From NCBI GenBank assembly GCA_027030245.1, contig JALVFE010000036.1, positions 1 to 58,062 on the forward strand: a stretch of 58,062 nucleotides of DNA, in the 5' to 3' direction. The position numbers and the translations under genes are program-made. Shown in pieces: positions 2,548 to 56,918 of this stretch. The stretch is from Melioribacteraceae bacterium. Its GTDB lineage: Bacteria > Bacteroidota > Ignavibacteria > Ignavibacteriales > Melioribacteraceae. Numbering within the stretch: the first letter of the stretch is position 1; every line of letters begins with the position of its first letter. The notes beneath the pieces were generated by a model that saw only the letters and a program-made list of their open reading frames with translations, was not told the origin of the DNA and ran no database searches.

Positions 2548-2564
2548 TGGCGGAGAGGGCGGGA
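2548..2564 (-). repeat. attL: 17-bp copy of the tRNA-Ser 3' end
   Basis: The sequence is identical to 12689-12705, which is the 3' terminus of tRNA-Ser on the minus strand, including the encoded CCA. Identity stops after position 2564, so only the tRNA end was duplicated. This is the expected left junction of an element that integrated at the tRNA 3' end. Confidence 0.85.
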
Positions 2565-2715
2565 ACTGAACCTATGCTTTTTTTAGTTTTTTTATCCTTC
2601 ACAAAAAATTTAAAACCGCAACATTAAAAACACCTAACGCATTGAAAAATAAGCAGTTATGTAATCTAAGGCGCTTCCCTAAGAAAAAGCATAATAGTAT
2701 AACTTTCTACATTAT

Positions 2716-2746
2716 TGTGTAAAAAATGTGTGTAGAAAATGTGTAG
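2716..2746 (+). repeat. Three TGTGTA direct repeats upstream of the integrase gene
   Basis: TGTGTA occurs at 2716-2721, 2729-2734 and 2740-2745, at 11-13 bp intervals, close to one helical turn. The cluster lies between attL and the integrase start. Such helically phased repeats could be integrase arm-type or excisionase binding sites. This is inferred from placement and spacing only. Confidence 0.35.
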
Positions 2747-2811
2747 CGGTATTGCATATTACTTTTTTTATTTTTAATTTTGTATTGAAGTTTTAATTAC
2801 AAGGCGTATCG

Positions 2812-4053
2812 ATGACGATTAATTTTTATTTCCCGCGTTATAAAACCAAAAAGAAAGAGAAAACGATTTTCTGTTATGTAAGGGAAAAGGGAAAAGAGAT
2901 ATGTTTAAATACCGGATGCAAAAGCAATCCCGAACATTGGGATAAGGAGCGCCAAAGATTAAGTATTAGAAAAGCAAAAAGCAGTGTTGAAAAGAGCCGG
3001 TACTGGAATATCAATAAGATATTAGATGCTTACGAAAATAAAATTTACGATATTACTTATAAAATACGATCAAACAATCCAACGGCAAAATTTGAAACCA
3101 TAGCAAACGCGATTAAAAATCACTTCAATAAAAAAGACGATAGCTTCTTCGGAATTTATGATGAGTTTCTTAAAATTAAAAGCGCGAAAATTTCTACTGC
3201 AGCCATTCAAAAATATAAAAGACTTAAATCATTACTTAAAGAGTATGAAAAAGAGAACAGGATAAAATTAGATTTTGACAAAATCACAAATTTATTCTTT
3301 GAAAAATTCTTTCTATTCCTAATTACTAAAAAGAGAATGCTTAATAATTCAGCACACAAAACGATTCAGTTTCTTAAAACTTTTATGATCTGGGCAAACG
3401 ATAATGGATATACAGATAATAAAAGCTACAAAACTTTCAAATCAAAAGCGGAGCAAAACGAAGTTATTTATTTAACTGAAGATGAATTAATGAAATTATA
3501 CAACATGGAAATTGAAGATGAGAGATTATCGAGAGTAAGAGACTTGTTTGCATTCCAGTGTTTTACCGGAGTGCGTTATTCCGATATTAAAAATATTGCG
3601 CATGAGGATATTCGGGGTGCTACGTGGTACCTTAGAACACAAAAGACGCACCAAATATTAGAAATCCCTTTAAGTAGTTATGCGCTTTCGATATTGGCAA
3701 AATATAAAGATTATCCTCAGCCTTTACCGGCAATATCAAATCAAAAAATGAATTTATACGTAAAAGAACTTTGCAAGCTTGCCGGAATTGACACACCGGT
3801 TAAGATTGTAAAATTCAGAGGAAAAGAACGGATTGAAAAAGTTTATAAAAAATATGAAGTTATCGGCACACACACAGCACGCCGAACATTTATAAGTCTA
3901 TCGCTTGAAAAAGGAATGAAAGCCGAAGTAATAATGGCAATTACCGGCCATACCACTTATAGAATGATGCAAAAATATTTGAAAATTGCCGATGAACAAA
4001 AACGCACTGAAGTTGATATGGCTTGGGGAAGCCCATTAAGACAAATTAAATAA
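2812..4053 (+). CDS. int: Tyrosine recombinase / phage-type integrase
   Basis: A site-specific recombinase of 413 residues that would catalyse integration and excision at the tRNA-Ser 3' end. It has the Bacteroidota-type layout: an N-terminal arm-binding region with a CKSNPEHWD-like segment (residues 36-44), a SAM-like core-binding domain (about 110-200), and a catalytic domain. Candidate catalytic residues are R255 (TGVRYSDI), K278, H354 and R357 (HTAR), H380 (TGHTT) and nucleophile Y389, so the active site appears complete. The ATG at 2812 is the first in frame. The gene lies next to attL and reads into the element. It belongs to the integrase group used by Bacteroidota transposons and prophages; the family is secure. 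Confidence 0.95.
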   Translation: MTINFYFPRYKTKKKEKTIFCYVREKGKEICLNTGCKSNPEHWDKERQRLSIRKAKSSVEKSRYWNINKILDAYENKIYDITYKIRSNNPTAKFETIANAIKNHFNKKDDSFFGIYDEFLKIKSAKISTAAIQKYKRLKSLLKEYEKENRIKLDFDKITNLFFEKFFLFLITKKRMLNNSAHKTIQFLKTFMIWANDNGYTDNKSYKTFKSKAEQNEVIYLTEDELMKLYNMEIEDERLSRVRDLFAFQCFTGVRYSDIKNIAHEDIRGATWYLRTQKTHQILEIPLSSYALSILAKYKDYPQPLPAISNQKMNLYVKELCKLAGIDTPVKIVKFRGKERIEKVYKKYEVIGTHTARRTFISLSLEKGMKAEVIMAITGHTTYRMMQKYLKIADEQKRTEVDMAWGSPLRQIK

Positions 4054-4082
4054 TTTAACAAAATACAACATAAATGAAATTT

Positions 4083-4094
4083 ATTGCATGCAAT
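4083..4094. promoter_or_regulatory. 12-bp palindrome downstream of int
   Basis: ATTGCATGCAAT is a perfect 12-bp palindrome in the 93-bp gap between the integrase gene and the next gene, about 50 bp before the next start codon. It could be an operator, but there is only one copy and no direct evidence. Confidence 0.2.
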
Positions 4095-4146
4095 TCCCAC
4101 TATCTCCCTAAAGAGACAATTTTTAGAATAAAAAAGGAGGCTAAAA

Positions 4147-4611
4147 ATGCAAGCGCTAAAATTAAATGAGAACCAAATCAAACAGGTAAAAACATGTTTT
4201 TACGTTAACCTCAAAGATGAAACCGGCAAAAAAAATAACGTTGTTTTGTATGATGACGAATTCGAAATTGTACCGACTGGTAAATACCTTGAACAATCTA
4301 AGCCGGCTCCGGCATTAGCCGGAAAAGTTAAGGTAGAATCGATTAATAAAATTTCCGAAGGAAACGGAAAACTCATTGCACGAAATCTTAACATGATCGA
4401 ATCTTTAATCAATATACTTTCGGTAAAGCTTGAGTTAAGCACTTTTGTTAAATTAGGCGAAATGGATATTGGCGAATTATACGAAGCGGAAAATTTGTTC
4501 CAATTAATAATTAATCTTGCGGAAACATGTAAGGAAGAAATTAACAATCAAGTAGATTTTAGGGATTACATAATTGAACAGCCAAACAGATATGAAGGCG
4601 ATAAAATTTAA
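4147..4611 (+). CDS. Element protein of unknown function, 154 aa
   Basis: I do not recognise this protein. It begins at an ATG preceded by an excellent Shine-Dalgarno sequence (AAGGAGG at 4134-4140), so it is very likely translated. The N-terminal half (to about residue 65) is mixed and charged; residues 75-135 look helical with a leucine/isoleucine pattern (MIESLINILSVKLEL, LFQLIINLAETCKEEI). There is no signal peptide or membrane segment. It is the first gene after the integrase and could be a regulatory or accessory protein of the element. No function is claimed. Confidence 0.65.
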   Translation: MQALKLNENQIKQVKTCFYVNLKDETGKKNNVVLYDDEFEIVPTGKYLEQSKPAPALAGKVKVESINKISEGNGKLIARNLNMIESLINILSVKLELSTFVKLGEMDIGELYEAENLFQLIINLAETCKEEINNQVDFRDYIIEQPNRYEGDKI

Positions 4612-4766
4612 TTCACATTAGCAGCTTATTGGTTAATTTTGAGAGTTCTTAAGAAAAAGGTGATAATGCAAGTTTAATAATTAAAAGTTCCTTAGAAACG
4701 ATTTATGAAAGAATAAGAAAAAAAATAAACTATCGAATAAATTCCTAAAATGAGTAAATTAATTTT

Positions 4767-4843
4767 AAATCCATTTGAACCGTACCGGTACTACCGGAGG
4801 CCGTTGGGAATCGGCTCGATAGCGGTTTGAATGGATTTTTTTT
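4767..4843 (+). ncRNA. GC-rich extended hairpin with U-tract upstream of the 263-aa gene
   Basis: Bases 4767-4782 and 4823-4838 can pair over all 16 positions when two G-U pairs are allowed (AAATCCATTTGAACCG against CGGTTTGAATGGATTT). The 40-nt interior is GC-rich in an AT-rich surrounding and can form a second hairpin, GGCCG with CGGCT. Eight T residues follow (4836-4843), and the next gene begins 3-12 nt later. It could be a structured non-coding RNA, an intrinsic terminator, or an attenuator controlling the downstream gene. The structure is seen in the sequence; the role is not known. No reverse transcriptase is nearby, so a retron is unlikely. Confidence 0.45.
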
Positions 4844-4854
4844 GAGTGATTAAG

Positions 4855-5646
4855 ATGTCAGAAAAAAAAGAAATAAAAAAATCATTGAAATACATAAAAA
4901 AAGAAGCAAAACATGCAGAAAAACAAATGCAAGAATGTGATTCTATCTTATCATTATGCCGTGATGCAATATTATTAAACGAGGAACAATTAAAAATAAT
5001 TAATTCTAATGATCCTTACGATATATTGATTAGAAAGTTTAAAGTAGATGATGATAAAAATGTTATTTTAGCTCAAAGTATAGCGATAATAGAAAATCCG
5101 GAGGAACTCGAAATAATAAAAAACATGATTTTGAAGGCAATAGAACATTTGGAAATAATGAAAAATCATTACACGGTTTTTAGAGAGAAGTATCATTATC
5201 GATATTTATTGCTTATAAAGAAAATATATGAGCTTGAAGAAAAATATGAAGAAATTGAACCTATTGGTAATAAAATTGCATCAAGTAAAAATTTATTAAG
5301 AAAGAGGAAATACGAACTTATTGAGGCAGAATTAGAGCAAACTGTTGAGGAATTAAAAAAATTAGGTCATTATGATGAGGCAGACAAAACATTATTAGAG
5401 AAAAAAGTTTCTATTTCTAATGATTTTAATAAGCTTAACGAACATACTGGTGCTGACAAAAATAGTTCTATTTCTTTGTTAAAAAGTAAGCAAATAGTGA
5501 TGCTATATTTAAAGGATAAAGGAATAACTAAAGCAAAATTAAGAAACATCAATAACAGCGAACTTTCACGGGAGATTGCAAAGCACTATCGACAATATAA
5601 AAGTGAAACATATAGACGAGAAATAATTAAAATTAAAAATGAGTAA
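4855..5646 (+). CDS. Coiled-coil-rich element protein, 263 aa, unknown
   Basis: I do not recognise this protein. It is highly charged, rich in lysine and glutamate, and most of residues 5-190 look like long helices or coiled coil (for example YELEEKYEEIEPIGNK and LEQTVEELKKLGHYDEA). The last 60 residues (SLLKSKQIVMLYLKDKG... SELSREIAKHY) look like a compact helical, possibly nucleic-acid-binding, segment. The start is uncertain: ATG at 4855 or GTG at 4846, neither with a strong Shine-Dalgarno. Both lie immediately after the hairpin and T-tract at 4767-4843, suggesting control of translation or read-through. There is no signal peptide. Confidence 0.6.
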   Translation: MSEKKEIKKSLKYIKKEAKHAEKQMQECDSILSLCRDAILLNEEQLKIINSNDPYDILIRKFKVDDDKNVILAQSIAIIENPEELEIIKNMILKAIEHLEIMKNHYTVFREKYHYRYLLLIKKIYELEEKYEEIEPIGNKIASSKNLLRKRKYELIEAELEQTVEELKKLGHYDEADKTLLEKKVSISNDFNKLNEHTGADKNSSISLLKSKQIVMLYLKDKGITKAKLRNINNSELSREIAKHYRQYKSETYRREIIKIKNE

Positions 5647-5786
5647 TGTTTTTATGATCAATATTCCCACAGAAAACCACAAATTACCACAACGATTTCT
5701 CTAAGTTATTATAATTAAATAAATTATAGACGCCAATTTACATATAATTTTGTCATTGCCCACATACCATCATCATCCTTATATTC

Positions 5787-5824
5787 CCTCGTAATTATTT
5801 TTTGTTTCATTAAACATTACGAGG
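5787..5824. promoter_or_regulatory. 9-bp inverted repeat overlapping the ribosome binding site of the RHH-like gene
   Basis: CCTCGTAAT at 5787-5795 is exactly complementary to ATTACGAGG at 5816-5824, with a 20-bp spacer. The right arm contains the GAGG that serves as ribosome binding site for the start at 5832. It could be the operator of the small DNA-binding protein encoded just downstream (autoregulation), or an RNA hairpin hiding the ribosome binding site. Perfect 9-bp arms at this location are unlikely to be accidental, but the role is inferred. Confidence 0.5.
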
Positions 5825-5831
5825 TTCAAAC

Positions 5832-6008
5832 ATGGCCGAGAAAGAATTGAAAAGCGTAATTATTCAGTTTCGCGCGGCGCCTACTGAACGCGATCAGTTA
5901 AGAAAATTAGCAAAAGAACAAAATTTTTTGAGTCTTACAGAGCTGATCCGATACGTTTTGCGTCGGGAACTTGAGAAGCATCAAACGAGCGGAAGCTATG
6001 CACAATAA
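5832..6008 (+). CDS. Small Arc/ribbon-helix-helix-like protein, 58 aa
   Basis: A 58-codon frame starts at the ATG at 5832 behind GAGG and ends with TAA at 6006-6008. It contains VIIQFRAAPTERDQL (about residues 9-23), followed by LSLTELIRYVLRRELEK, the beta-strand then two-helix arrangement of plasmid-type ribbon-helix-helix DNA-binding proteins and mobilisation accessory proteins. Its end overlaps the next start codon by 11 bases, so the two genes are probably translated together. An inverted repeat lies just upstream. It is probably a repressor or accessory DNA-binding protein of the element; the family is a reasonable but not certain call. Confidence 0.7.
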   Translation: MAEKELKSVIIQFRAAPTERDQLRKLAKEQNFLSLTELIRYVLRRELEKHQTSGSYAQ

Positions 6009-6297
6009 TCCGGATTCAATAATTTTTCTTTCGTCGGCGGAGTTGGAAAAAATTGTTCGGGATGCCGTTAAGTCGGCGCTTGCCGAAGTTAGAGCGAAAG
6101 AAAAAGAAAAAGAATTAATGAACTTTCGCGAAGCAAAAGAATTTTTAGGAATTTCGGCCAGCACACTAAATAAATGGAAAGCTGAGAATAAAATTCCATA
6201 CCGGAGACTTGGCAAACGGATTTTTTTCAAGAAAGACGAAATAATAAAAGCACTAGAAAATTCAGATTACTATAAATTAAAACAATTAAAATTATAA
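5998..6297 (+). CDS. Excisionase-like helix-turn-helix protein (HTH_17 type)
   Basis: The C-terminal half contains MNFREAKEFLGISASTLNKW followed by IPYRRLGKRIFFKKDEIIKAL, the MerR-like winged helix of excisionase/DNA-binding domain proteins that pair with tyrosine integrases. The N-terminal part contains a charged helix (ELEKIVRDAVKSALAEVRAK). I chose the ATG at 5998, giving 99 residues and overlapping the preceding stop; an upstream in-frame ATG at 5971 would run deep into the preceding gene. By analogy it may act as recombination directionality factor or transcriptional regulator of the element. The fold is secure, the exact role inferred. Confidence 0.8.
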   Translation: MHNNPDSIIFLSSAELEKIVRDAVKSALAEVRAKEKEKELMNFREAKEFLGISASTLNKWKAENKIPYRRLGKRIFFKKDEIIKALENSDYYKLKQLKL

Positions 6298-6309
6298 GGA
6301 GAATTCAAA

Positions 6310-6963
6310 ATGTTAACTTTAGAGAAAATGAAAGCGGAATTGGAAAAACTGCGTAAGGAGTATGATGACACGATGAGAAACAACGAATTTTTTACTCCGG
6401 CCCAATCCGCGAACATGACAGAATTAGTTGGGCGAATCAAACAGCTTGAAGATGATATTAAAAAGGTAGAGCTGTGGCCGTTGACTTTGCAAGTTGAGAA
6501 ACTCGATCGTTTGGCTACGGAAGAAGAGATCGCGGATGCAAAAGTCGCAATTCGCGAATTTGAAAAGAATGTTCTTCCGAAATTTCTAGAAGCTTTTTAC
6601 CCAAATCTTTTAGAAAATCCGGTAGCTTATGAGATGCAAAGACAAGAAGCTCTGAAGTTGCTTTCGAGATTGGATACTGAAGGGCTGACTGCTGTTACAG
6701 ATATTATTAATTCAATGCGCTCAGAAATAACATTAGGAGAGCGAACGGATTTTGTTTCTTTGCTCCTTTTTGGCGTGGAAGGATATTTTAAAGAGCAAAA
6801 CATTCATACCGGCAATGTTTTTTGGGAGTTTGATCGAGTAAAATTTGATTATTTGGGCCGGTATGATCGAGAATCTTTATTGCAACAATTTAGAGACTAC
6901 AAAAAAGCACGCAAAATTTTTATTAATTTTTTGTATGAAAGGAAGGAGCAAGCCGGAGCATGA
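6310..6963 (+). CDS. Element protein of unknown function, 217 aa
   Basis: I do not recognise this protein. It starts at an ATG with a clear ribosome binding site (AGGAG at 6298-6302) 12 nt after the HTH gene. Residues 1-60 form a probable coiled coil (LEKMKAELEKLRKEYDD, LVGRIKQLEDDIKKVE). The remainder is mostly helical, with no cysteine clusters, signal peptide or membrane segment. It sits in the early region between the regulatory and replication genes, so a replication or regulation role is possible but not shown. Confidence 0.6.
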   Translation: MLTLEKMKAELEKLRKEYDDTMRNNEFFTPAQSANMTELVGRIKQLEDDIKKVELWPLTLQVEKLDRLATEEEIADAKVAIREFEKNVLPKFLEAFYPNLLENPVAYEMQRQEALKLLSRLDTEGLTAVTDIINSMRSEITLGERTDFVSLLLFGVEGYFKEQNIHTGNVFWEFDRVKFDYLGRYDRESLLQQFRDYKKARKIFINFLYERKEQAGA

Positions 6964-7137
6964 TTTTTAGCGAGAAAAACGGGGTTCAATTCTTGGCACC
7001 TCTATTAAAGGGTTTATGAAAGGCTTGAAAATTGCAGAAATTTGAAGTTTTAATTGTTGTTTGATAGTTATGTTGCAAAAAAACTACATAATATTAAGGA
7101 TTTAATTGCGGGAGCACGCTTAAAGGAGCACGTTTTT

Positions 7138-7185
7138 ATGGATGGTTTAACAATGTATATCTCTAATATTCAGGGCAAAAAATGA
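7138..7185 (+). CDS. Possible 15-aa leader peptide coupled to the replication gene
   Basis: A 15-codon frame (MDGLTMYISNIQGKK) starts at the ATG at 7138 behind AAAGGAGCACG, a good Shine-Dalgarno. Its TGA (7183-7185) overlaps the ATG of the replication gene (7182) as ATGA. GGAGCACG is duplicated 14 bp apart just upstream (7111-7118 and 7125-7132). The arrangement fits translational coupling that sets the level of the replication protein. Short frames of this size arise by chance, so this is tentative. Confidence 0.35.
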   Translation: MDGLTMYISNIQGKK

Positions 7186-8105
7186 AAGATCCGGCAGCAT
7201 TATTATACATTGATGTTTGGTATAAAGCTACTACCGAAATGAGCGCAGAAGCGCGGGCCTATTATATGGATTTGATTTTACACCAATTCGATAAAAAAAG
7301 CCTACCTAACGACATCGAGGAACTGGCAAATATATGCAGAGTAAGAATAAGTGAGTTTCCAAAATTTAAGCAAGTGTTTGAGCAAGTGCTTAAGCAAAAG
7401 TTTAAGCTAACTCCAGAGGGACGCTTAGTAAATCCGTTTGCCAGCGAAATAATTCGCAAAAGAGAAGCTTATAAAGAAAAGCGGACTGTTTCGGGGCGCA
7501 TTGGTTACATAGTTAAGTTCGCAAAACGTGAATTACAGCTCAAAAAGAAAGAAATTGAACAATTAAAAAGGAATTTAGACACCGAAGAATTAATGAATTT
7601 GGATTTAAAAGATGAGCAAAATTTAAGCAAATGGTTAAGCAAGTGCTTAAGCAAAAATGGAAGCAACGCTAATAGCATACTAAATGGAAATGGAGATATA
7701 TATACCCATAATATTAGTATTACTAATAGTAAAGAAGAAATAGAATATAATAATTATCAAGAATTATTAAATGTTTGGAATTCTTTTGCTGAGAAGCATG
7801 GGTTGACTAAGGTTAATTTGCTAACTAAAGAAAGGAAAAGACATATTAAGGCGCGGTTAAAAGAGGAAAGTTTTAACTTGATAAATATTCTGAAAGCTGC
7901 AGAGTTGCAAGAATTCTTATTGGGGAACAATGATAGAGGTTGGACAATCGATTTCGATTGGATTGTTAGTTCAACTACAAATTACGTTAAAGTTTTAGAA
8001 GGGAAATATAGGAGTAAAAACAATGGTCAAAGAAAAGGAATTAGCAGAGAAGAACTTTACGAAATTGCAAAAGACATTGCAAACGATCCCGATCTCGCAG
8101 ACTGA
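7182..8105 (+). CDS. DUF1376-type phage replication initiator / replisome organizer
   Basis: The N-terminal 95 residues match the DUF1376-like pattern of phage replication proteins: LLYIDVWYKATTEMSAEARA, a segment with SLPNDIEELANICRV, then EGRLVNP and EIIRKREAY. Such proteins bind the phage origin and recruit the replicative helicase. Residues about 100-135 are charged and helical, and 140-185 are low in complexity, encoded by the second repeat cluster and the AT-rich stretch. The C-terminal part (about 190-290, LLNVWNSFAEKHGLTKVN) resembles the C-terminal domain of phage replisome organizers. The gene contains two clusters of tandem 12-bp repeats (7365-7412, 7622-7669), as expected when the origin lies within the initiator gene. 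Length is 307 residues, start ATG overlapping a short leader frame. Confidence 0.75.
   Translation: MKDPAALLYIDVWYKATTEMSAEARAYYMDLILHQFDKKSLPNDIEELANICRVRISEFPKFKQVFEQVLKQKFKLTPEGRLVNPFASEIIRKREAYKEKRTVSGRIGYIVKFAKRELQLKKKEIEQLKRNLDTEELMNLDLKDEQNLSKWLSKCLSKNGSNANSILNGNGDIYTHNISITNSKEEIEYNNYQELLNVWNSFAEKHGLTKVNLLTKERKRHIKARLKEESFNLINILKAAELQEFLLGNNDRGWTIDFDWIVSSTTNYVKVLEGKYRSKNNGQRKGISREELYEIAKDIANDPDLAD
7365..7412 (+). repeat. Iteron-like cluster 1: four tandem 12-bp units
   Basis: Units are TTTAAGCAAGTG, TTTGAGCAAGTG, CTTAAGCAAAAG and the degenerate TTTAAGCTAACT, back to back. They are read here as FKQV-FEQV-LKQK-FKLT, starting on a codon boundary. The same DNA units recur at 7622-7669 in another codon frame, so the DNA sequence rather than the peptide is conserved. 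This is the behaviour expected of binding sites for a replication initiator. Confidence 0.7.
7622..7669 (+). repeat. Iteron-like cluster 2: four tandem 12-bp units
   Basis: Units are TTTAAGCAAATG, GTTAAGCAAGTG, CTTAAGCAAAAA and the degenerate TGGAAGCAACGC. The codon frame is shifted relative to cluster 1, so the peptide is LSKW-LSKC-LSKN-GSN. Both clusters share the core TTAAGCAA and the 8-bp palindrome GCTTAAGC at the unit 2/3 junction. Confidence 0.7.
7670..7775. other. AT-rich stretch next to iterons, candidate origin unwinding region
   Basis: Directly after the second repeat cluster the coding sequence becomes extremely AT-rich (for example GATATATATACCCATAATAT near 7694-7713). Together with the two repeat clusters it has the layout of an initiator-gene-embedded origin, as in gene O of lambda: iterons followed by an easily melted region. 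This is inference from layout. Confidence 0.5.
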
Positions 8106-8580
8106 TACCAAGATTTCGATATATCGTGATAAATTGACAAAATCGGGGATTGCAAAGCAAATTGCGAAAATCCATTCTGCTTTTCCGGAAATGAATAAAA
8201 ACCAAATAAATATTTTGAAGGAACGGATTAAGGCGAATAATTTCACTGATAAACGATTTGAAGACGCGGTTAATTTTGTAATTGATAATTTCAAATACGG
8301 TAATATTCCGCACATAGCGGATTTTATCCGGTATGATCAAACTATAGACCTTTTCAGTTATAATGATCTTCTTGAAATGCACCAAAACAACAAAGACGTT
8401 TTCAAGATGGTTATTGCTATAGACGTTGGGCTTTCCGTACCAAAGTATGTTTGGAAATGGGACTATGAAAAATATCCGTTTTTTAAGAAATGGGAGATAA
8501 AAAAGGCCAAATCTTCGATTAAAACATATTCCGATAACGGAAAAACCGGAACCAAAATCTTTAGTATAGACGAAGAATAG
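8023..8580 (+). CDS. Replication-module protein of unknown function, possible helicase-loader partner
   Basis: This 185-residue protein is not recognised. It starts at an ATG with AGGAG at 8011-8015 and overlaps the end of the replication gene by 83 bp in another frame, which implies tight coupling. It contains a helical region with FPEMNKNQINILKERIKANN (about 54-73), then FVIDNFKYGNIPHIADFIRYD, and a tryptophan-rich end (YVWKWDYEKYPFFKKW). In phages the gene after a DUF1376 initiator often encodes a helicase or helicase loader, but there is no Walker motif here, so an ATPase is excluded. It may be an accessory replication factor. Confidence 0.6.
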   Translation: MVKEKELAEKNFTKLQKTLQTIPISQTDTKISIYRDKLTKSGIAKQIAKIHSAFPEMNKNQINILKERIKANNFTDKRFEDAVNFVIDNFKYGNIPHIADFIRYDQTIDLFSYNDLLEMHQNNKDVFKMVIAIDVGLSVPKYVWKWDYEKYPFFKKWEIKKAKSSIKTYSDNGKTGTKIFSIDEE

Positions 8581-8596
8581 AAAAAAGTAAAAGCAA

Positions 8597-9442
8597 ATGA
8601 AGATCGATGACAATATAGAACTTAAAGATTTACTCGATTCATTTGAAAAAGAGTTAGTCAGAAACTATAAAGAGGTTTTGTTGAAGCTAAAAATTGAAAT
8701 TGGAAAAATGTTTGAAAAATACGGTGATGATGTTGATTACACTAAAATGGTAATGTACCACCGGCTAAGCAACTTGGAATCTCAGATTTTTGAAAAAATC
8801 AAAAAGTTAACTAACGAAAACAAGAAAAATGTTGAAAATGCAATTCATAGTTCTTTTAGGCAATCTTATGAAGGCGCCATAACAAAAATAAATGAATCGG
8901 TTCCGCAAATAAATATCGCATTCGGTTTATTAGATGAGGAAACAATCAAAGCTGCTTTATTAAATCCCTTGGAGAAAATAAAATGGCCGGAAAGGATAAA
9001 TAAAAGCTCTCAAAAATATGCTTATGATCTAAAACAAACTTTAACGCAAGGTTTAATGCAGGGTCATGGTTACGGGAAAATGGCTAAAGAATTTACAAGA
9101 ATATCGGAAATGGATGCATCCAGGGTATTAAGAATAATGCGTACTGAGGGGCATAGAGCACAAACAATTGGTAAACTTAAGGCTTTAGACCGGTTGGATG
9201 AAGCCGCAGCCCAATTAGGATTAAGAACAAAAAGAATTTGGGTATCTGCTAATGATGATCGTACGAGGGATTCACATAAAGAAATGAACGGCAAAGCAGC
9301 TGATGAAAACGGGTACTTTACACTACCTTCCGGAGTTACGACAGCCGGCCCGGGATTAAGCGGTGTAGCGGAAGAAGATATTAATTGCCGTTGTAGAGTA
9401 ATTTCCGAAATAGAAGGAATTAACGAATTAAACAACAAATAA
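8597..9442 (+). CDS. MuF-like minor head / head morphogenesis protein
   Basis: The C-terminal part matches the Mu gpF / SPP1 gp7 family (Phage_Mu_F): RIMRTEGHRAQTIGKL at about 175-190, KRIWVSANDDRTRDSHKEMNG at about 212-232, and EEDINCRCRVIS near the end. These proteins sit inside the capsid near the portal and are ejected with or assist DNA. The N-terminal 140 residues are helical. There is no extra toxin domain of the kind seen in polymorphic MuF toxins, and the length of 281 is short but complete. No portal, terminase or capsid gene precedes it, which is odd since this gene normally lies directly after the portal. Confidence 0.85.
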   Translation: MKIDDNIELKDLLDSFEKELVRNYKEVLLKLKIEIGKMFEKYGDDVDYTKMVMYHRLSNLESQIFEKIKKLTNENKKNVENAIHSSFRQSYEGAITKINESVPQINIAFGLLDEETIKAALLNPLEKIKWPERINKSSQKYAYDLKQTLTQGLMQGHGYGKMAKEFTRISEMDASRVLRIMRTEGHRAQTIGKLKALDRLDEAAAQLGLRTKRIWVSANDDRTRDSHKEMNGKAADENGYFTLPSGVTTAGPGLSGVAEEDINCRCRVISEIEGINELNNK

Positions 9443-9455
9443 AAAGTGCAAAAAA

Positions 9456-9698
9456 ATGCAAAATAAAAATGAACTTTATTCGCCTATGCTCTTAAATGCA
9501 AACACAAACGAATTGGAAAATCAATATAAAGAATTCAAAGAATTAGTAGAAACAGCAAAAGTTTTAAGTAATGATAAGGCTATGAATTCATTACTAAGCA
9601 ACATTGAATTAAGTATGGCACGGATGCATTTTACTTACGTTGATGTTTTGGCAAAATTCATTAAAGAAATTTTAATAGCACATTCAAATAATAATTAG
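9456..9698 (+). CDS. Small helical element protein, 80 aa
   Basis: I do not recognise it. The 80-residue protein starts with an ATG 13 nt after the MuF gene and is predicted to be almost entirely helical (LENQYKEFKELVETAKVL, IELSMARMHFTYVDVLAKF). It is the only gene between the MuF-like protein and the tape-measure protein, a place where a complete phage would have capsid, connector and tail-tube genes. The next gene follows after 13 bp with a good ribosome binding site. It may be a structural or chaperone protein. Confidence 0.55.
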   Translation: MQNKNELYSPMLLNANTNELENQYKEFKELVETAKVLSNDKAMNSLLSNIELSMARMHFTYVDVLAKFIKEILIAHSNNN

Positions 9699-9711
9699 GA
9701 GGTTTAGAGAA

Positions 9712-11430
9712 ATGCCTGGAAAGGACAAACTTGCTGACATATATGTTGAGATAGATGCGCGGACAGAAAAACTTGATCGGGAAATTAACCGGCTGAAAAA
9801 TAAGATCGATAAAGACGCTCAAAAAATGGGAAAAACTTTTAGCCAAGGATTCGGAAAAGCAATTGCATTTGCCGGCGGAGCAATCTTAATTAACAAATTT
9901 ATTAACTTCACAAAAAAATCAATTGAATTATATTTTAAGCAAGAAGCTGCAGAAAAACGTCTAACAATTGCATATCGTAAAAATGCACAGGCTTTAATTG
10001 ATTACGCAGCTGCTTTACAGCAAAAAACCGCTTATGGAGATGAGGACATAATTGAAGCCGAAGCGTTAATAGCTGCGTTTATTAGAGAGGAAGATTCAAT
10101 TAAGAAGCTAACAAAAGCTACACTTGATTTAGCCGCTGCAAAGGGTATGGATTTAAAAACTGCTGCAGATTTACTGACTAAATCTGTTGCAAGTGGAACC
10201 AATGCTTTGTCGCGTTATGGTCTTGAGATTAAGGGTGCCGCGGGCTCGGCCGAAAGATTAGAAAGCGCAGTCAAAGCAGTTAACGATGCGTTCGGCGGGC
10301 AGGCAGCTGCGCAATTAGATACGTATGCCGGAAAAGTCCAAGCAATTTCAAATGCTTGGGGTGATTTACGGGAGAAATTTGGACGTTTTTCAACAAAAAC
10401 AATTTTTGCTGCATTGCAAACACTATTCTCCGGCAGAGAGGGGACGCTTGCTTTTGCTTCTCAGCTTACTTCTAATGAAATTGCCGAAAGAGCAAAAAAA
10501 ATTGCCGATCAAGTTAAGCAAGAATACGGCGTTAGTATGCCCAATGCTCTTAAAAAAACTATTGTTTCGGTAAAAACTTTAGAAGATGAAATAAAAAAAT
10601 TAGAAGAACGCTTAAAAAATATAAGCATTTATGATACTGCAACGCGCGATAAATTGTTGGCTCTTATTGGTTCCAAACAACAAATAATTCAAAGTTTCCT
10701 TCATCCTAAACAACCGGTGCCATATACAAATTTTGATGACGTTGGCAATAAACCGGTTGAGCCGAAATTCCCAAACATTGTACCCAAAAAACTTCCATTT
10801 GTTACACCTAATTATTATCAACCGGTCGACATAGCAACTTTGCTGGTTTTGCAATGGATAAGAGAATCTGACATCAAGCAACAAACACTGTTTAACAAAA
10901 TGATTAATAATGCTAGCAGACTTGGCAATGCTCTCGAAGATGCCTTTTCCGGACACGGACAAACATTGGTAAGTTATATGAATCAGGCTTTACAAATTGC
11001 GTTGAATATTGCAGATGCTATACACAAAAGCACAGGTTCGATCGGCGATATTTTGGGTATTATTGCTTCTGTCATCCCTGGCTTTGGTTTAATTAATAAA
11101 ATTGCGGGTGGTGGTCGTGCAATCGGGGGTGCGGTTTATACGGATAAGGTTTACACGGTTGGTGAGCGCGGGCCGGAGTTATTTATCCCAAATACACCTG
11201 GTATTGTAGTGCCGAATTCGGCAATTACTACCGGAGCTTCCGGCGGGGATATAAATCGCTCACTTCAAAGAGTAATTAAAAGCATTCAAGCGATGAACTT
11301 AAATATGGATGAAAAATTACACGCATTGGTAAATGCAACAGTGAGTAGGGAATTGAAAACAAAACTTCAAGGATCAGATATAGTCATCAGCGAAAAAAGG
11401 GCTTCAAGAATTATGCGAAGGTATCAATAA
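9712..11430 (+). CDS. Phage tail tape-measure protein (short)
   Basis: A tape-measure protein determines tail length and is ejected with the DNA. This 572-residue protein begins at an ATG behind AGGAGG (9699-9704). Residues 1-45 are a charged coiled coil (ARTEKLDREINRLKNKID), followed by hydrophobic and alanine-rich helical segments (about 45-70 and 75-220). A hydrophobic region (IGDILGIIASVIPGFGLINK) lies near residue 445-463. Then comes the glycine-rich element GGGRAIGGAV...VGERGPELFIP (about 464-492), which is highly typical of tail tape-measure proteins, with PNSAI after it. It is short compared with most family members (often 700-1500 residues). No tail tube, assembly chaperone or baseplate genes accompany it. 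Confidence 0.85.
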   Translation: MPGKDKLADIYVEIDARTEKLDREINRLKNKIDKDAQKMGKTFSQGFGKAIAFAGGAILINKFINFTKKSIELYFKQEAAEKRLTIAYRKNAQALIDYAAALQQKTAYGDEDIIEAEALIAAFIREEDSIKKLTKATLDLAAAKGMDLKTAADLLTKSVASGTNALSRYGLEIKGAAGSAERLESAVKAVNDAFGGQAAAQLDTYAGKVQAISNAWGDLREKFGRFSTKTIFAALQTLFSGREGTLAFASQLTSNEIAERAKKIADQVKQEYGVSMPNALKKTIVSVKTLEDEIKKLEERLKNISIYDTATRDKLLALIGSKQQIIQSFLHPKQPVPYTNFDDVGNKPVEPKFPNIVPKKLPFVTPNYYQPVDIATLLVLQWIRESDIKQQTLFNKMINNASRLGNALEDAFSGHGQTLVSYMNQALQIALNIADAIHKSTGSIGDILGIIASVIPGFGLINKIAGGGRAIGGAVYTDKVYTVGERGPELFIPNTPGIVVPNSAITTGASGGDINRSLQRVIKSIQAMNLNMDEKLHALVNATVSRELKTKLQGSDIVISEKRASRIMRRYQ

Positions 11431-11492
11431 TTAAACATAAAATATAAATTTGATGATATAAAAGGCGATTTTTTCAAGCTATTTTCTTGTAA

Positions 11493-11502
11493 CTATCGAT
11501 AG
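11493..11502. promoter_or_regulatory. 10-bp palindrome upstream of the three small genes
   Basis: CTATCGATAG is a perfect palindrome about 24 bp before the start codon at 11526, in the 95-bp gap after the tape-measure gene. The gap could hold a promoter for the downstream trio; the palindrome may be an operator. Single copy, weak evidence. Confidence 0.2.
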
Positions 11503-11525
11503 TCTATTAAGTTATCGCAATCTAT

Positions 11526-11762
11526 ATGAAAACGAAAGACACATTAAAAGAAAAACCTAAAAGGGTTAGTAATATTCGCGCGGCAAGGCGATTAATGGCA
11601 AGGTTGATTTATGATTTGCAACGGGAAAATATAACCAGTGAAAAAGCAAAAACATTAGCTTATCTTTTGATTAAATATTCTGAATTATTCAAAGTCGAAA
11701 AATTGGAAGAACTTGAAAACCGGTTAAAAAGAATTGAGGAAAAAATTGATGAAAAATCTTAA
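11526..11762 (+). CDS. Small basic element protein with C-terminal coiled coil, 78 aa
   Basis: I do not recognise it. The 78-residue protein has a basic N-terminus (LKEKPKRVSNIRAARRLMAR) that could contact nucleic acid. Its C-terminal coiled coil (ELENRLKRIEEKIDE) resembles the N-terminal motifs of the next two proteins. It overlaps the following gene by 14 bp. No good Shine-Dalgarno precedes the ATG, but the reading frame is well placed at the head of a compact three-gene block. Confidence 0.5.
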   Translation: MKTKDTLKEKPKRVSNIRAARRLMARLIYDLQRENITSEKAKTLAYLLIKYSELFKVEKLEELENRLKRIEEKIDEKS

Positions 11763-12099
11763 TAATAGAATTTCAAAAATTGAAGAAAAGTTATCCATTT
11801 CTAATTTTACTTATTCTGATGAGATGTTGAAAAAATTAATGAAACTATTAACGGAAAATGAGCTTAATGATATTAAGAACGCTAGGACGACAAAGGAGCA
11901 AAAACTTTTAATTTCGCTTTTTGTTAAAAAATATGAACATGAGCTAATACAAGTTCGCTTATCAAAAAGGGATGTTAAGGAAATAAAGTTGTTAAATTCA
12001 TACTCTAATGAAGAACTCAAACAAATGGTAGCCGGTACCAATTTGGGTGAGACTTTGTGGGACGATTTTTTTAATAAAATTGAAATGGCGATCCAATGA
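11749..12099 (+). CDS. Small element protein with N-terminal coiled-coil motif, 116 aa
   Basis: I do not recognise it. The chosen ATG at 11749 has GAGG 10 nt upstream; another in-frame ATG at 11734 would add five residues. The N-terminus NLNNRISKIEEKLSI (residues 3-17) is similar to those of its neighbours. The rest is helical and charged, with LTENELNDIKNARTTKEQ and a tryptophan-containing end (GETLWDDFFNKIEMAIQ). Its stop overlaps the start of the next gene (ATGA). Confidence 0.5.
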   Translation: MKNLNNRISKIEEKLSISNFTYSDEMLKKLMKLLTENELNDIKNARTTKEQKLLISLFVKKYEHELIQVRLSKRDVKEIKLLNSYSNEELKQMVAGTNLGETLWDDFFNKIEMAIQ

Positions 12100-12329
12100 G
12101 AAATTTATTCAATAGAGTAGAAAAAATAGAATCAAAATTGCGTGTTAATGCTCAACTGCCGGAAATAATTTTTTTTGAAGTGATTGAAAATTCATCAGCG
12201 GAAATTAAGACCGGTTATAAAGCAATCGCTACCGGAAACGGTGATTATGATCTTTTTGAAAACGGCGAAAAATTAAATCCTAAAGATTTAAGGAAGTCTG
12301 TGATTTTTATTGAGGATATAACGGAGTAA
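12096..12329 (+). CDS. Small element protein, 77 aa, coiled coil plus beta-rich C-terminus
   Basis: I do not recognise it. It starts inside the stop of the preceding gene (ATGA). Residues 2-16 (RNLFNRVEKIESKLRV) repeat the short coiled-coil motif of the two previous proteins, while residues 20-77 look beta-rich (EIIFFEVIENSS, GYKAIATGNGDYDLFENGEKL). It is the last rightward gene of the element and ends two bases before the convergent HTH gene. Confidence 0.5.
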   Translation: MRNLFNRVEKIESKLRVNAQLPEIIFFEVIENSSAEIKTGYKAIATGNGDYDLFENGEKLNPKDLRKSVIFIEDITE

Positions 12330-12330
12330 T

Positions 12331-12579
12331 TTATTTCAGTTTTTTTTTGTTATAAATTATATGCTGCACAGTTTTTTCCGCTATGTAAAATTCTTCGGCC
12401 ACTTTCTCTCTTGCAGTTTTAGGTTTCATCCCTTTTATTACGTATTCATGGTAGGTTAATTCTACTTCGAAATATCTCAACGAATCTTTATTAATCAAAT
12501 TATTTTTTATGCATGCATCGAGCAAACTTTTTGTGAGTTGGATTAATCTTAATGAAAATTTAATACTGTTTTGAAACAT
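12331..12579 (-). CDS. Small putative HTH DNA-binding protein at the right end of the element
   Basis: This 82-residue protein is the only leftward gene in the element and starts about 110 bp from attR. The C-terminal part, KGMKPKTAREKVAEEFYIAEKTVQHIIYNKKK, fits a helix-turn-helix: a helix, a turn and a recognition helix (IAEKTVQHIIY) followed by basic residues. It could be a small regulator of the element or resemble the DNA-binding domain of a small terminase-type protein. There is no closer family recognition. The opposing orientation next to the att site suggests independent control. Confidence 0.55.
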   Translation of the reverse strand: MFQNSIKFSLRLIQLTKSLLDACIKNNLINKDSLRYFEVELTYHEYVIKGMKPKTAREKVAEEFYIAEKTVQHIIYNKKKLK

Positions 12580-12687
12580 AAAAAACTTATTAAAGTTATT
12601 CGAAATGTAATAAAAAAATAGCTTTCAGAAGTAAGTGTTGTGTAGATTTAATGAAGAAGATTTGTAAGTTATTGTTTTATAATACAT

Positions 12688-12778
<91 letters not shown>

Positions 12779-13084: not shown

Positions 13085-14716
13085 ATGTTAAAAAGTTATT
13101 TTTACATAAAAAGAAGTCTTGCCGAACTCCGCCCCAAGCTTTTATCCGGAAAAATTTTTGAAATTTTTACTCAAGAAAAAGATACGGTGTTTTTTCACGT
13201 GCCTGACGATTCATACGGTTTTGCGCATTTGATAATATCGGTTAATCCGCAATTGTCTTTTTTGCAATATAAAAAGGAATTTCACAAAGCGAAAAAAAAC
13301 GTAACGTCGTTTCTCAACGAACTTCTCCCGCTGAAAATTGATGATATTCTGATTGCCGAAAAAGACAGAATCGCATTGATTCTAACAGAAGAAATAGAAA
13401 TCTACGTTTTATTCCACGGTTCGAAATCGAATGTAATTTTCATGAATAAAAACGGCAGCATGGTTTTATCTTTTAAAAAGATTAAAAATCCGGAAACCGT
13501 AACGAAAGAAATCCGGGAAAATGTTTTTATCAATCCGGAAGAACATTACGATAATCTCGCGGATTTGAAAATAGATTCGGTTGAAGAATTAAAAAAAGTG
13601 AGAGACGAATTTCCAAACATCTCAAAAGAAATTCTGGAAGAAGTTTCTTACCGGTACGAAGGCTCGGGTAAACAAATAAACTATTTATTGGACGAAATTT
13701 TACGGGAAATTGAAACCGGAAAAATTGTAACGGGCTACTCGGAAAAAGAAGCCAAAATAAAAATGCTGCCCGCAAACTTTCGCAAAGCTTCCGAACTAAC
13801 CGCAGTGCAAACCGCAAACAGTTTCAATGATGCTTTGCATAATTATTTATCTTTGCACTACAAATTTTTAAGAACTTTAACGCTGAAAAAAGAAATCGGG
13901 AAATATCTCGATAGGGAACTTGACCGGTTGGCAAATAAATTGAATAAGCTGAAAGGTAGAATTGAATTAGGCTCCCGGGAAAATGAGTATAATAAATTCG
14001 GAACCTTACTGCTTAACAACCGGCATCTGTTTAAAAAAGGAATGAAAGAAATTGAACTGGAAGATTATGAAAGCGGGAGTAAATTATTAATCAAATTGGA
14101 CGAAAAGCTTTCGCCGCAAGCCAATATTGAAAAATATTTCGAAAAGTCCCGGGACGAAAAAATTAATTTCGCCAAATCAATTGAATTGTTCGATACAACG
14201 GAAAAACGTTTTACGGAGCTTAAAGAGATAAAGAAGAAGTTAGAAGATACGGATGATCCGGAAGAACTGAGCGCTCTTAAAGAAAAATTAAAAATTAATG
14301 GAAAAGAAAAGGTGAATAAATCGGAAAATAAATTTAAATTTCGTAGGTTTTTAATTGAGAATAAATATCAAGTTTTCGTTGGCAAGGATAGTAAGTCGAA
14401 TGATTATCTTTCGATCAAATTTGCTAAGCAAAACGACTACTGGTTTCACGCACGCGGATTAGCCGGTTCGCACGTTGTGTTGCGGGTCGATAATCCGAAA
14501 GAAGGTGTTCCTAAAAGTATTTTAAAAAAAGCCGCTTCCATCGCCGCATATTTCAGTAAAGGTAAAACAGCCGGCGTTACTCCGGTATCATACACGTTGG
14601 CAAAGTACGTTTATAAAAAGAAAGGAATGGAACCGGGCAAAGTAATGATTTCCAAGGAGAAAGTGTTGCTTGTTAAACCGGAAATTCCAGGAGATTGTGA
14701 GCAGATAAATGAATAA
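13085..14716 (+). CDS. rqcH: RqcH / NFACT family ribosome quality-control protein
   Basis: Bacterial NEMF homologues bind 50S subunits carrying stalled peptidyl-tRNA and recruit tRNA-Ala to add C-terminal alanine tails, marking the peptide for degradation. The protein has the NFACT-N domain (1-about 200), with the Asp-Arg pair at residues 94-95 (EKDRIAL) that corresponds to the DR motif needed for tailing. A helical coiled-coil middle (about 200-400) follows, then the NFACT-R RNA-binding domain (about 410-535) with YWFHARGLAGSHVVLR. At 543 residues it is of normal family length. It heads a tightly packed rightward operon and overlaps the next gene by 8 bp. Older annotations call it fibronectin-binding protein A. 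Confidence 0.92.
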   Translation: MLKSYFYIKRSLAELRPKLLSGKIFEIFTQEKDTVFFHVPDDSYGFAHLIISVNPQLSFLQYKKEFHKAKKNVTSFLNELLPLKIDDILIAEKDRIALILTEEIEIYVLFHGSKSNVIFMNKNGSMVLSFKKIKNPETVTKEIRENVFINPEEHYDNLADLKIDSVEELKKVRDEFPNISKEILEEVSYRYEGSGKQINYLLDEILREIETGKIVTGYSEKEAKIKMLPANFRKASELTAVQTANSFNDALHNYLSLHYKFLRTLTLKKEIGKYLDRELDRLANKLNKLKGRIELGSRENEYNKFGTLLLNNRHLFKKGMKEIELEDYESGSKLLIKLDEKLSPQANIEKYFEKSRDEKINFAKSIELFDTTEKRFTELKEIKKKLEDTDDPEELSALKEKLKINGKEKVNKSENKFKFRRFLIENKYQVFVGKDSKSNDYLSIKFAKQNDYWFHARGLAGSHVVLRVDNPKEGVPKSILKKAASIAAYFSKGKTAGVTPVSYTLAKYVYKKKGMEPGKVMISKEKVLLVKPEIPGDCEQINE

Positions 14717-56676: not shown

Positions 56677-56918
56677 TTTTTACTCCGTAATTAGATTGGT
56701 AAAGAAGTAAATAATATTCGTAAATATAAGAAAAATCGGAGATAACTTTAATTTTGCTTTGTTTTATGATAATTTAAATTGGAATTGAACATTAACTAAT
56801 CCGTAACCGGCAAACAGTAAGACAGACTGATATTTTGGTTTGTTATTTGGAATTGGTCAATCGTCATTGGTCATTTGTCACTTGTTACTGGTCATTTGTC
56901 ATTTGGAATTTTTTTGTC

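Follow-up and report, generated by a model that had tools for sequence, protein, structure and literature searches.

A phage-type initiator gene carrying two jointly changing copies of one repeat site points to a two-part version of the lambda-type origin

The integrated element and its initiator gene

The features of the locus are collected in Table 1, and by the window we mean the whole stretch of DNA that was analysed (58,062 nucleotides). The copy of the tRNA-Ser(GCT) 3' end at 2548-2572 suggests that an element of 10.1 kb (about 2548-12713) is integrated in the tRNA gene. GC content is 33.2% in the element and 38.2% in the part of the window on its right. The genes of the element include an HTH/excisionase-like gene, a tape-measure-like protein and a Mu F-like head protein (Pfam/PHROG), the weaker PHROG matches of the latter including families named portal. 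Terminase names appeared weakly (E 0.002) in an 80-aa ORF and in the HTH gene, and no major capsid name was matched among the element ORFs scanned; the element may be a satellite or a reduced prophage. The genus genomes G001 and G003 were searched for an empty integration site without success, since ahead of the gene at 13085 their sequence is different and contains no tRNA; G002 ends in this region. The phage-like contig C7 was considered as a helper of the element and set aside, as shared genes gave no support (one of 13 element ORFs, through the initiator C-domain, matched it at E 0.01). A gene for a DNA methyltransferase (N6_N4_Mtase) with N-terminal HEAT repeats lies just outside the candidate attL, at 775-2139 on the minus strand.

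Table 1. Coordinates of the features at the locus
Feature	Position	Strand	Remarks
Candidate attL, copy of the tRNA-Ser 3' end	2548..2572	+	22/25 bp, first 17 exact
Tyrosine integrase of the element	2812..4053	+	PF00589 E 1.2e-11, PF13102 E 2.2e-9
HTH protein	5971-6297		Element-encoded
Initiator gene	7182..8105	+	307 aa; DUF1376 domain (winged-helix-like) at the N-terminus, then a linker and an O-like/DnaD-like domain at the C-terminus
DUF1376 domain (residues 8-85)	7203..7436	+	Pfam PF07120 E 8.9e-10
Iteron cluster 1	7365..7412	+	12-bp units at 7365, 7377, 7389 (good) and 7401 (degenerate)
Iteron cluster 2	7622..7669	+	12-bp units at 7622, 7634, 7646 (good) and 7658 (degenerate); linker codons
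AT-rich tract, candidate unwinding element	7702..7781	+	82.5% AT
C-terminal domain (residues 191-289), common to O-like initiators	7752..8048	+	Alignment A1
Downstream ORF, 185 aa	8023..8580	+	Best match PHROG 13105 (unknown function), E 0.009
tRNA-Ser(GCT)	12689..12778	-	3' end 12689-12713 = candidate attR

In a Pfam scan of the initiator protein up to E 1, DUF1376 was the one match above its cut-off (39.3 bits against the curated 30.1 of PF07120); an O-type N-terminal domain was absent, and RepA_N (PF06970/pfam06970) was not matched, a difference from the RepA_N plasmid initiators. Against PHROG, the protein matched family 10469 (DnaD-like helicase loader, E 1.9e-21), family 19658 (replication initiation protein) and, over residues 146-281, the O-like family 345 (E 1.8e-18), so that an O-like C-terminal domain is present. 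When PHROG 345 was searched in 395 genomes of the phylum, most matches did not extend into the final third of the model. The position of the C-domain was set by the A1 model, which itself includes the window sequence; over query 192-288 this domain shares 48% identity with a second initiator in the genome, carried on contig C7. The whole protein as query found no close relatives in the viral contigs or genome contigs scanned, and among 97 genomes it had a match in its own genome only. The downstream ORF, whose weak matches are families without known function, overlaps the end of the initiator gene by 83 bp, a place often taken by a helicase-loader gene.

The AlphaFold2 model of the protein (mean pLDDT 81, pTM 0.45) predicted helices at residues 22-38, 45-51 and 56-68 and short strands near 75-76 and 82-83 in the DUF1376 domain, an order of elements that appears winged-helix-like. 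Among the PDB structures returned for this model, winged helices stood among others, the top being ORC2 winged helices with a middling Z of 6.7; Foldseek alone gave no match at E <= 0.001. PDB sequence searches with the C-domain and with both N-domain types treated below gave no convincing relative (best E 0.085).

Two repeat clusters read in different frames

The sequence-only reading had described two clusters of four tandem 12-bp units in this gene, 209 bp apart. The clusters are real and the gap is as stated, while the unit count stands in part: each cluster has three good units and a degenerate fourth, not four equal ones. The palindrome TGCTTAAGCA is present in both clusters (7387-7396 and 7644-7653). 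Comparing 7360-7407 with 7617-7664, 42 of 48 positions agree (88% identity over 48 nt) at an offset of 257 bp, and because this offset is not divisible by 3 the clusters are read in different codon frames, as FKQVFEQVLKQK in cluster 1 and as LSKWLSKCLSKN in cluster 2. The match between the clusters scored 31, a value reached by none of 2000 synonymous-codon permutations of the whole gene (best null 26), which upholds the claim that similar DNA is read here in two frames.

Tandem periodicity alone is weaker in this gene and marginal, as it was reached by 123 of 2000 recodings and gave p 0.02 in the class-wide test. Pairs of TTAAGCAA (at most 1 mismatch, 11-13 bp apart) occurred five times on the plus strand of the 58-kb window, in the two clusters only, and not at all on the minus strand; 20 base shuffles of the plus strand contained a mean of 0.05 such pairs. 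Single copies of the 12-mer, with up to 2 mismatches allowed, are not unusual in the window (11 observed, 8.9 expected). What is rare is the arrangement of the units, not the single 12-mer. Far from the element, at 56839-56905 of the window, there is a heptamer/21-bp tandem repeat (TTTGTCA; ATTTGTCAATCGTCACTGGTC).

The site pair in genes with related N-domains

With the N-domains as queries, 57 loci of the L044 type were obtained, and 13 nearest to the N-domain of the window protein (48-65% identical). After the removal of L259, L260 and six near-duplicates from the 71 N-domain genes, 63 remained including that of the window, 52 of the L044 type and 11 of the window type. A tblastn search of L044 in phages returned two records, both of which had been found already. 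Most of the 63 genes carry one DNA site in the N-domain codons (about codon 47-66) and carry it again in the linker. The match between copies at least 130 bp apart beat all 200 synonymous recodings in 41 of the 63 genes; p was <=0.05 in 50 and >0.05 in 13. The window-type genes were weaker on this test (2 of 11 beat every recoding, and L265 gave p 0.28), because in the ten relatives the linker copy shares its reading frame with a repeated peptide. Among the 52 L044-type genes, both sites lay above the cut in 46, with an offset modulo 3 of 1 in 37 genes, 2 in six and 0 in three. The remaining six comprise L239, which is without both sites, L248, L250 and L254, which are without cluster 1, and L233 and L245, which are arranged differently.

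The 63 genes carry different C-terminal modules (A1-type in 10, PF07261 in L205, PHROG 2514 in L266), and since these vary while the site pair stays, the pair goes with the N-domain. Six window-type relatives were compared with the DUF1376 cut-off: L261, L265 and L266 pass, L263 and L264 are just under it, and L267 is lower. L044, L205, L211 and L118 had no DUF1376 match up to E 0.01. The hhalign probability between the N-domains of the window type and the L044 type was 4%, and the predicted order of helices and strands is similar. In the model of the window protein, the codons of cluster 1 would correspond to the end of a putative recognition helix together with the first strand of the wing. 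The predicted domain of L204, an L044-type protein, looks similar, and there cluster 1 falls on a strand and loop that come earlier. The similar DNA site thus appears to sit at two different places of the domain. For the L204 N-domain, the top structures were 4pql, 5kbj and 4pt7 (titled initiator or Rep-DNA; Z 7.4, 7.2 and 7.0, middling), which we take to be pSK41-type RepA. CRP-type winged helices tie with the initiator chains for L204 (up to Z 6.8), and 4pt7 and 4pql were also among the structures returned for the window model, with a middling Z of 5.5.

In cluster 1 of the 11 window-type genes, all 22 Val codons are GTG, compared with 14 of 114 outside both clusters; in cluster 1 of the L044-type genes, 77 of 120 Lys codons are AAG, against 353 of 1200. 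This constraint at synonymous positions argues against the view that the repeats are peptide features, namely KQVLKQ or LKQKDKQ helices duplicated by slippage without a DNA function. Such a view could draw on the conserved peptide that cluster 1 encodes in part and on the in-frame, mostly repeated linker peptide of the ten window-type relatives; it is opposed by the different frames of the copies in the window gene and in most L044-type genes, by the failure of every one of the 2000 recodings to reach the match, and by the covariation described below, which is seen in the half-sites and is missing from the middle of the spacer. We regard it as strongly disfavoured and hardly credible.

Selection on the DNA is the reading that we prefer, and the window gene itself offers a comparison. 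The codon phase of its cluster 2 is 2, the sole such case among the 11 window-type genes, and the ten dereplicated relatives have phase 0. Its peptide LSKWLSKCLSK sits where L261, L263 and L266 have KQVLKQVLKQ-like peptides, and AAGCAAGTGCTTAAGCAA is identical base for base between the window and both L261 and L263. Judged by this alignment of sequences, cluster 2 of the window is a natural frame change that seems to have altered the peptide and spared the DNA. The ten relatives retain the FxQVFxQVLK peptide together with the DNA, and the window gene lost the cluster-2 peptide and kept the DNA; the refuting case set beforehand, peptides kept and DNA repeats lost, was seen in none of these ten dereplicated relatives. 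The recoding, covariation, codon-bias and frame-change comparisons support the earlier proposal that selection acts on the DNA.

Joint change of the two copies

Across the 63 genes, the cluster-1 region matched the linker of its own gene with a mean score of 18.56 and the linkers of other genes with 12.45, a difference reached in none of 10000 permutations. The own-over-other signal was also seen in the window-type genes alone (8 of 10000 permutations), and control region pairs in all 63 genes gave no signal (codons 1-40 against the linker, 8614 of 10000; codons 40-80 against 80-112, 5114 of 10000). The right half-sites of the two copies in 46 L044-type genes were AGCAA/AGCAA in 36, GGCAA/GGCAA in five and AACAA/AACAA in four, and were mismatched in one. 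Within the 25-bp site, positions 5, 6, 7, 9, 10, 20, 21 and 22 covary (permutation p <=0.001); in the spacer, position 17 shows no covariation (p 0.51) and positions 16, 18 and 19 barely covary (p 0.08, 0.06 and 0.03). In each cluster of the four AACAA genes among the 46, position 5 has switched together with position 10, its partner in the palindrome (C..G to T..A). In the window-type genes, both clusters consist mainly of AAGCAA (GCAA) units in four of 11 and mainly of ACAA units in the other seven. Residues 12, 93, 104, 108, 111 and 115 separate the GCAA class from the ACAA class in the 11 window-type proteins and are a lead only, because class and ancestry are confounded.

The own-over-other signal would likewise arise if recombination or gene conversion had copied one cluster onto the other without any selection, and the identical copies in L204 and L229 (25/25 bp) agree with such neutral concerted evolution. 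Copying of this kind fits poorly with a spacer in which position 17 does not covary and its neighbours barely do, although half-site bases on both sides of it do, and with the joint change of position 5 and its partner 10 in both clusters of the AACAA genes; the pair has moreover been kept over diverged lineages. We therefore consider neutral copying very improbable. A quick tree of the 46 N-domains implied at least 7 changes of the cluster-1 type and 8 of the cluster-2 type; with one of 43 inner branches well supported, the tree is poorly resolved, so that an independent-pairs test of joint changes is without power. Taken as sequence evidence, the joint change of the two copies across dozens of related phages points to a two-part version of the lambda-type origin.

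The AT-rich tract and the proposed origin

The earlier reading had placed an AT-rich stretch directly after the repeats. The stretch exists and is the richest in AT among the 80-bp windows listed, and it starts 33 bp past the last unit of cluster 2 rather than immediately. Relative to the gene mean, the AT content of the 80 bp after cluster 2 was raised by 0.079 in the window-type genes (n = 11, p 0.002) and by 0.097 in the L044-type genes (n = 45 of the 46 with both sites above the cut, p 2e-13), an excess to which protein reasons may contribute, as they may make linkers AT-rich. The corresponding values after cluster 1 were -0.030 (window type, p 0.02) and +0.016 (L044 type, p 0.03). A marked AT-rich tract after cluster 2 only suggests that the roles of the clusters are unequal; the proposal that both form one origin therefore keeps its origin part, and the two clusters seem not to contribute equally.

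We believe that 7365-7781 is probably an origin embedded in the initiator gene of the 10-kb integrated phage-type element, with cluster 2 and the AT tract as its core and cluster 1 as a second site. The comparative tests thus support the lambda-like origin put forward by the sequence-only reading. The sequences show two sites that are conserved, change jointly and are confined to the gene in the stretches scanned, and a marked AT tract after cluster 2. From these we infer the binding by the initiator, the melting, the recruitment of the helicase, the role of cluster 1 and the autonomous replication of the element. In the proposed mechanism, the N-terminal DUF1376 winged-helix-like domain would bind AAGCAA-type half-sites, the origin core would be formed by cluster 2 in the linker codons and the AT-rich tract that follows, an initiator array on cluster 2 would melt this tract, and the C-terminal O-like/DnaD-like domain would recruit the replicative helicase. 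In the codons of the DNA-binding domain, about 250 bp further upstream, cluster 1 would carry a second array of the same protein and act with cluster 2, most likely through protein bridging (DNA looping, or a coupling that tunes initiation). No helical phasing of the cluster offsets was found (p 0.67), which gives no support for tight looping. The model applies lambda O and pSK41 Rep to this gene, and cluster 1 is what the gene adds to them.

The main rival to the second-array role of cluster 1 is that the sites are intragenic operators, through which the initiator or another regulator of the element, for example the HTH protein (5971-6297), would control or roadblock the gene, with replication starting elsewhere. 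Each site does have a palindromic part together with direct half-sites, a combination known in operators of some plasmid initiators, and no marked AT-rich tract follows cluster 1. The direct-repeat arrays and the AT tract after cluster 2 fit an origin better. A site model, built from the same sites for which it was then scanned, reached at least 22 bits at cluster 1 (41), at cluster 2 (39) and on the opposite strand overlapping cluster 2 (9), and at no place outside the gene in 149,879 bp on both strands (up to 1.5 kb per side, 46 relatives), and this confinement to the gene also speaks against operators. On balance we hold the operator explanation to be unlikely, though less remote than the two alternatives weighed above.

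Comparison with known origins and implications

Origins inside initiator genes are already known, as the excerpted texts on lambda, on SPP1 oriL (PMC6316719) and on pSK41 (PMC5703833) describe. In the lambda O gene with ori-lambda and in the O genes of Stx phages, iterons and an AT-rich tract lie in the middle of the initiator gene, according to the excerpt of PMC7466680. The window gene resembles lambda O in having iterons and an AT tract inside it and in the match of its C-domain to the O-like PHROG 345; it differs in its DUF1376 N-domain, in the second iteron cluster within the N-domain codons and in the AAGCAA half-site with a palindrome. In pSK41 Rep, the excerpted account (PMC5703833) has a winged-helix N-domain that binds four Rep boxes located centrally in the rep gene, an encoded linker that is dispensable and a C-domain structurally similar to DnaD; this excerpt describes no second cluster in the N-domain codons, unlike what is seen in the window gene. 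In the Bacillus phage SPP1, oriL has direct repeats within gene 38 and an AT-rich unwinding element, and gp38 binds a second origin (oriR) about 13 kb away as well (excerpt of PMC6316719), whereas both clusters of the window lie in one gene, about 250 bp apart. The origins of Gram-negative PICIs, which are small integrated elements, have two iteron sets per origin, one on either side of the AT-rich region (excerpt of PMC6092414); by contrast, both sets lie here in the initiator coding sequence, and the marked AT tract follows cluster 2 and is not between the sets. A second, co-varying cluster in N-domain codons is not described in the excerpted open-licence PubMed Central text, which included PMC7466680, PMC5795418, PMC6316719, PMC6092414 and PMC5703833, and the excerpts of such text that mention DUF1376 name no function for it.

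Extending the model beyond this element, we are inclined to think, with some reserve, that a bipartite type of phage origin is widespread, with one of its two co-evolving binding sites lying in the codons for the initiator's DNA-binding domain; its frame (as in the window) or its position within the domain could shift and the DNA site be kept. If this is true, the sequence for protein recognition and that of the DNA site would be written in the same bases, and DUF1376 would be an origin-binding domain and so be given a function. The origins of many uncultured phages could then be placed from sequence alone, and the genes would provide a natural two-frame test bed for one stretch of DNA that serves as codons and as binding site. 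The paired clusters also make it possible to test what a further initiator array, placed about 250 bp upstream, contributes to the control of an origin.

Repeats in genes sharing the C-domain

The set of genes sharing the C-domain was collected with alignment A1 and comprised the best 80 of 507 viral-contig loci and the best 80 of 250 genome-contig loci. With the window and seven earlier loci these were 168 genes, of which 134 remained after the removal of eight with fewer than 60 aa before the C-domain and of 26 near-duplicates; 134 neighbouring ORFs, sampled by the rule that gave 334, served as controls. In these best-80 sets, the tandem repeats (period 9-59) of 83 of the 134 genes outscored every one of 100 synonymous recodings, against 2 of 134 neighbour ORFs, and a tandem-repeat score of at least 20 was found in 59 of 134 against 1 of 134. 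In the genes of these sets with p <=0.01 or a score of at least 16, the best repeat lies 8-94 aa ahead of the C-domain and hence mostly in the linker. The N-domains of the 134 best-80-set genes are diverse as judged by eye, and the generality of repeats at this gene position across such diverse N-domains in the best-80 sets is a further point against operators. L061, whose N-domain looks DUF1376-like by eye, has no repeats (p 0.38).

Distant matches were tested in the same best-80 sets with the genes cut at the C-domain, 132 being used and two of the 134 left out for short N-parts. A distant match beat every recoding in eight of 132 genes, compared with 1 of 134 control ORFs. One copy lies in the N-domain in the window gene, L073, L118 and L129; L124, L062 and L184 carry both copies in or near the linker, and L007 has one copy ahead of its annotated start. 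This placement indicates that the pair of N-domain and linker copies goes mainly with N-domains of the window type and the L044 type.

The same-genome paralogue L002 (G000:C7, 1474-2313) is an O-like initiator with linker repeats at 1907-1942 and 1944-2010; these are a 22-bp unit present three times and a 15-bp repeat, and they differ from the iterons of the window. This C7 initiator matches gp18 of ST104, annotated as O-like, over 92% of its length with 25% identity (E 9e-6).

Three further genes of this kind showed repeats of their own. L004 of Bacteroides phage BS-TP2, an annotated O-like initiator, has a GGGCACAAC-type 12-bp repeat in two linker clusters (2743-2778 and 2816-2846), with the best match at an offset of 68 and in different frames, that is, a two-cluster layout in the linker alone. 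In Roseburia phage Shimadzu (L007), the GACGACC-type linker repeat of the replication initiation protein recurs at about 2392-2428, just before the annotated start and in another frame. L124 (2260-3333, bacterium isolate Bpl_23) has 75-bp tandem units of GAGTTG-type repeats upstream of the C-domain, and its repeat is the highest-scoring distant repeat in the survey.
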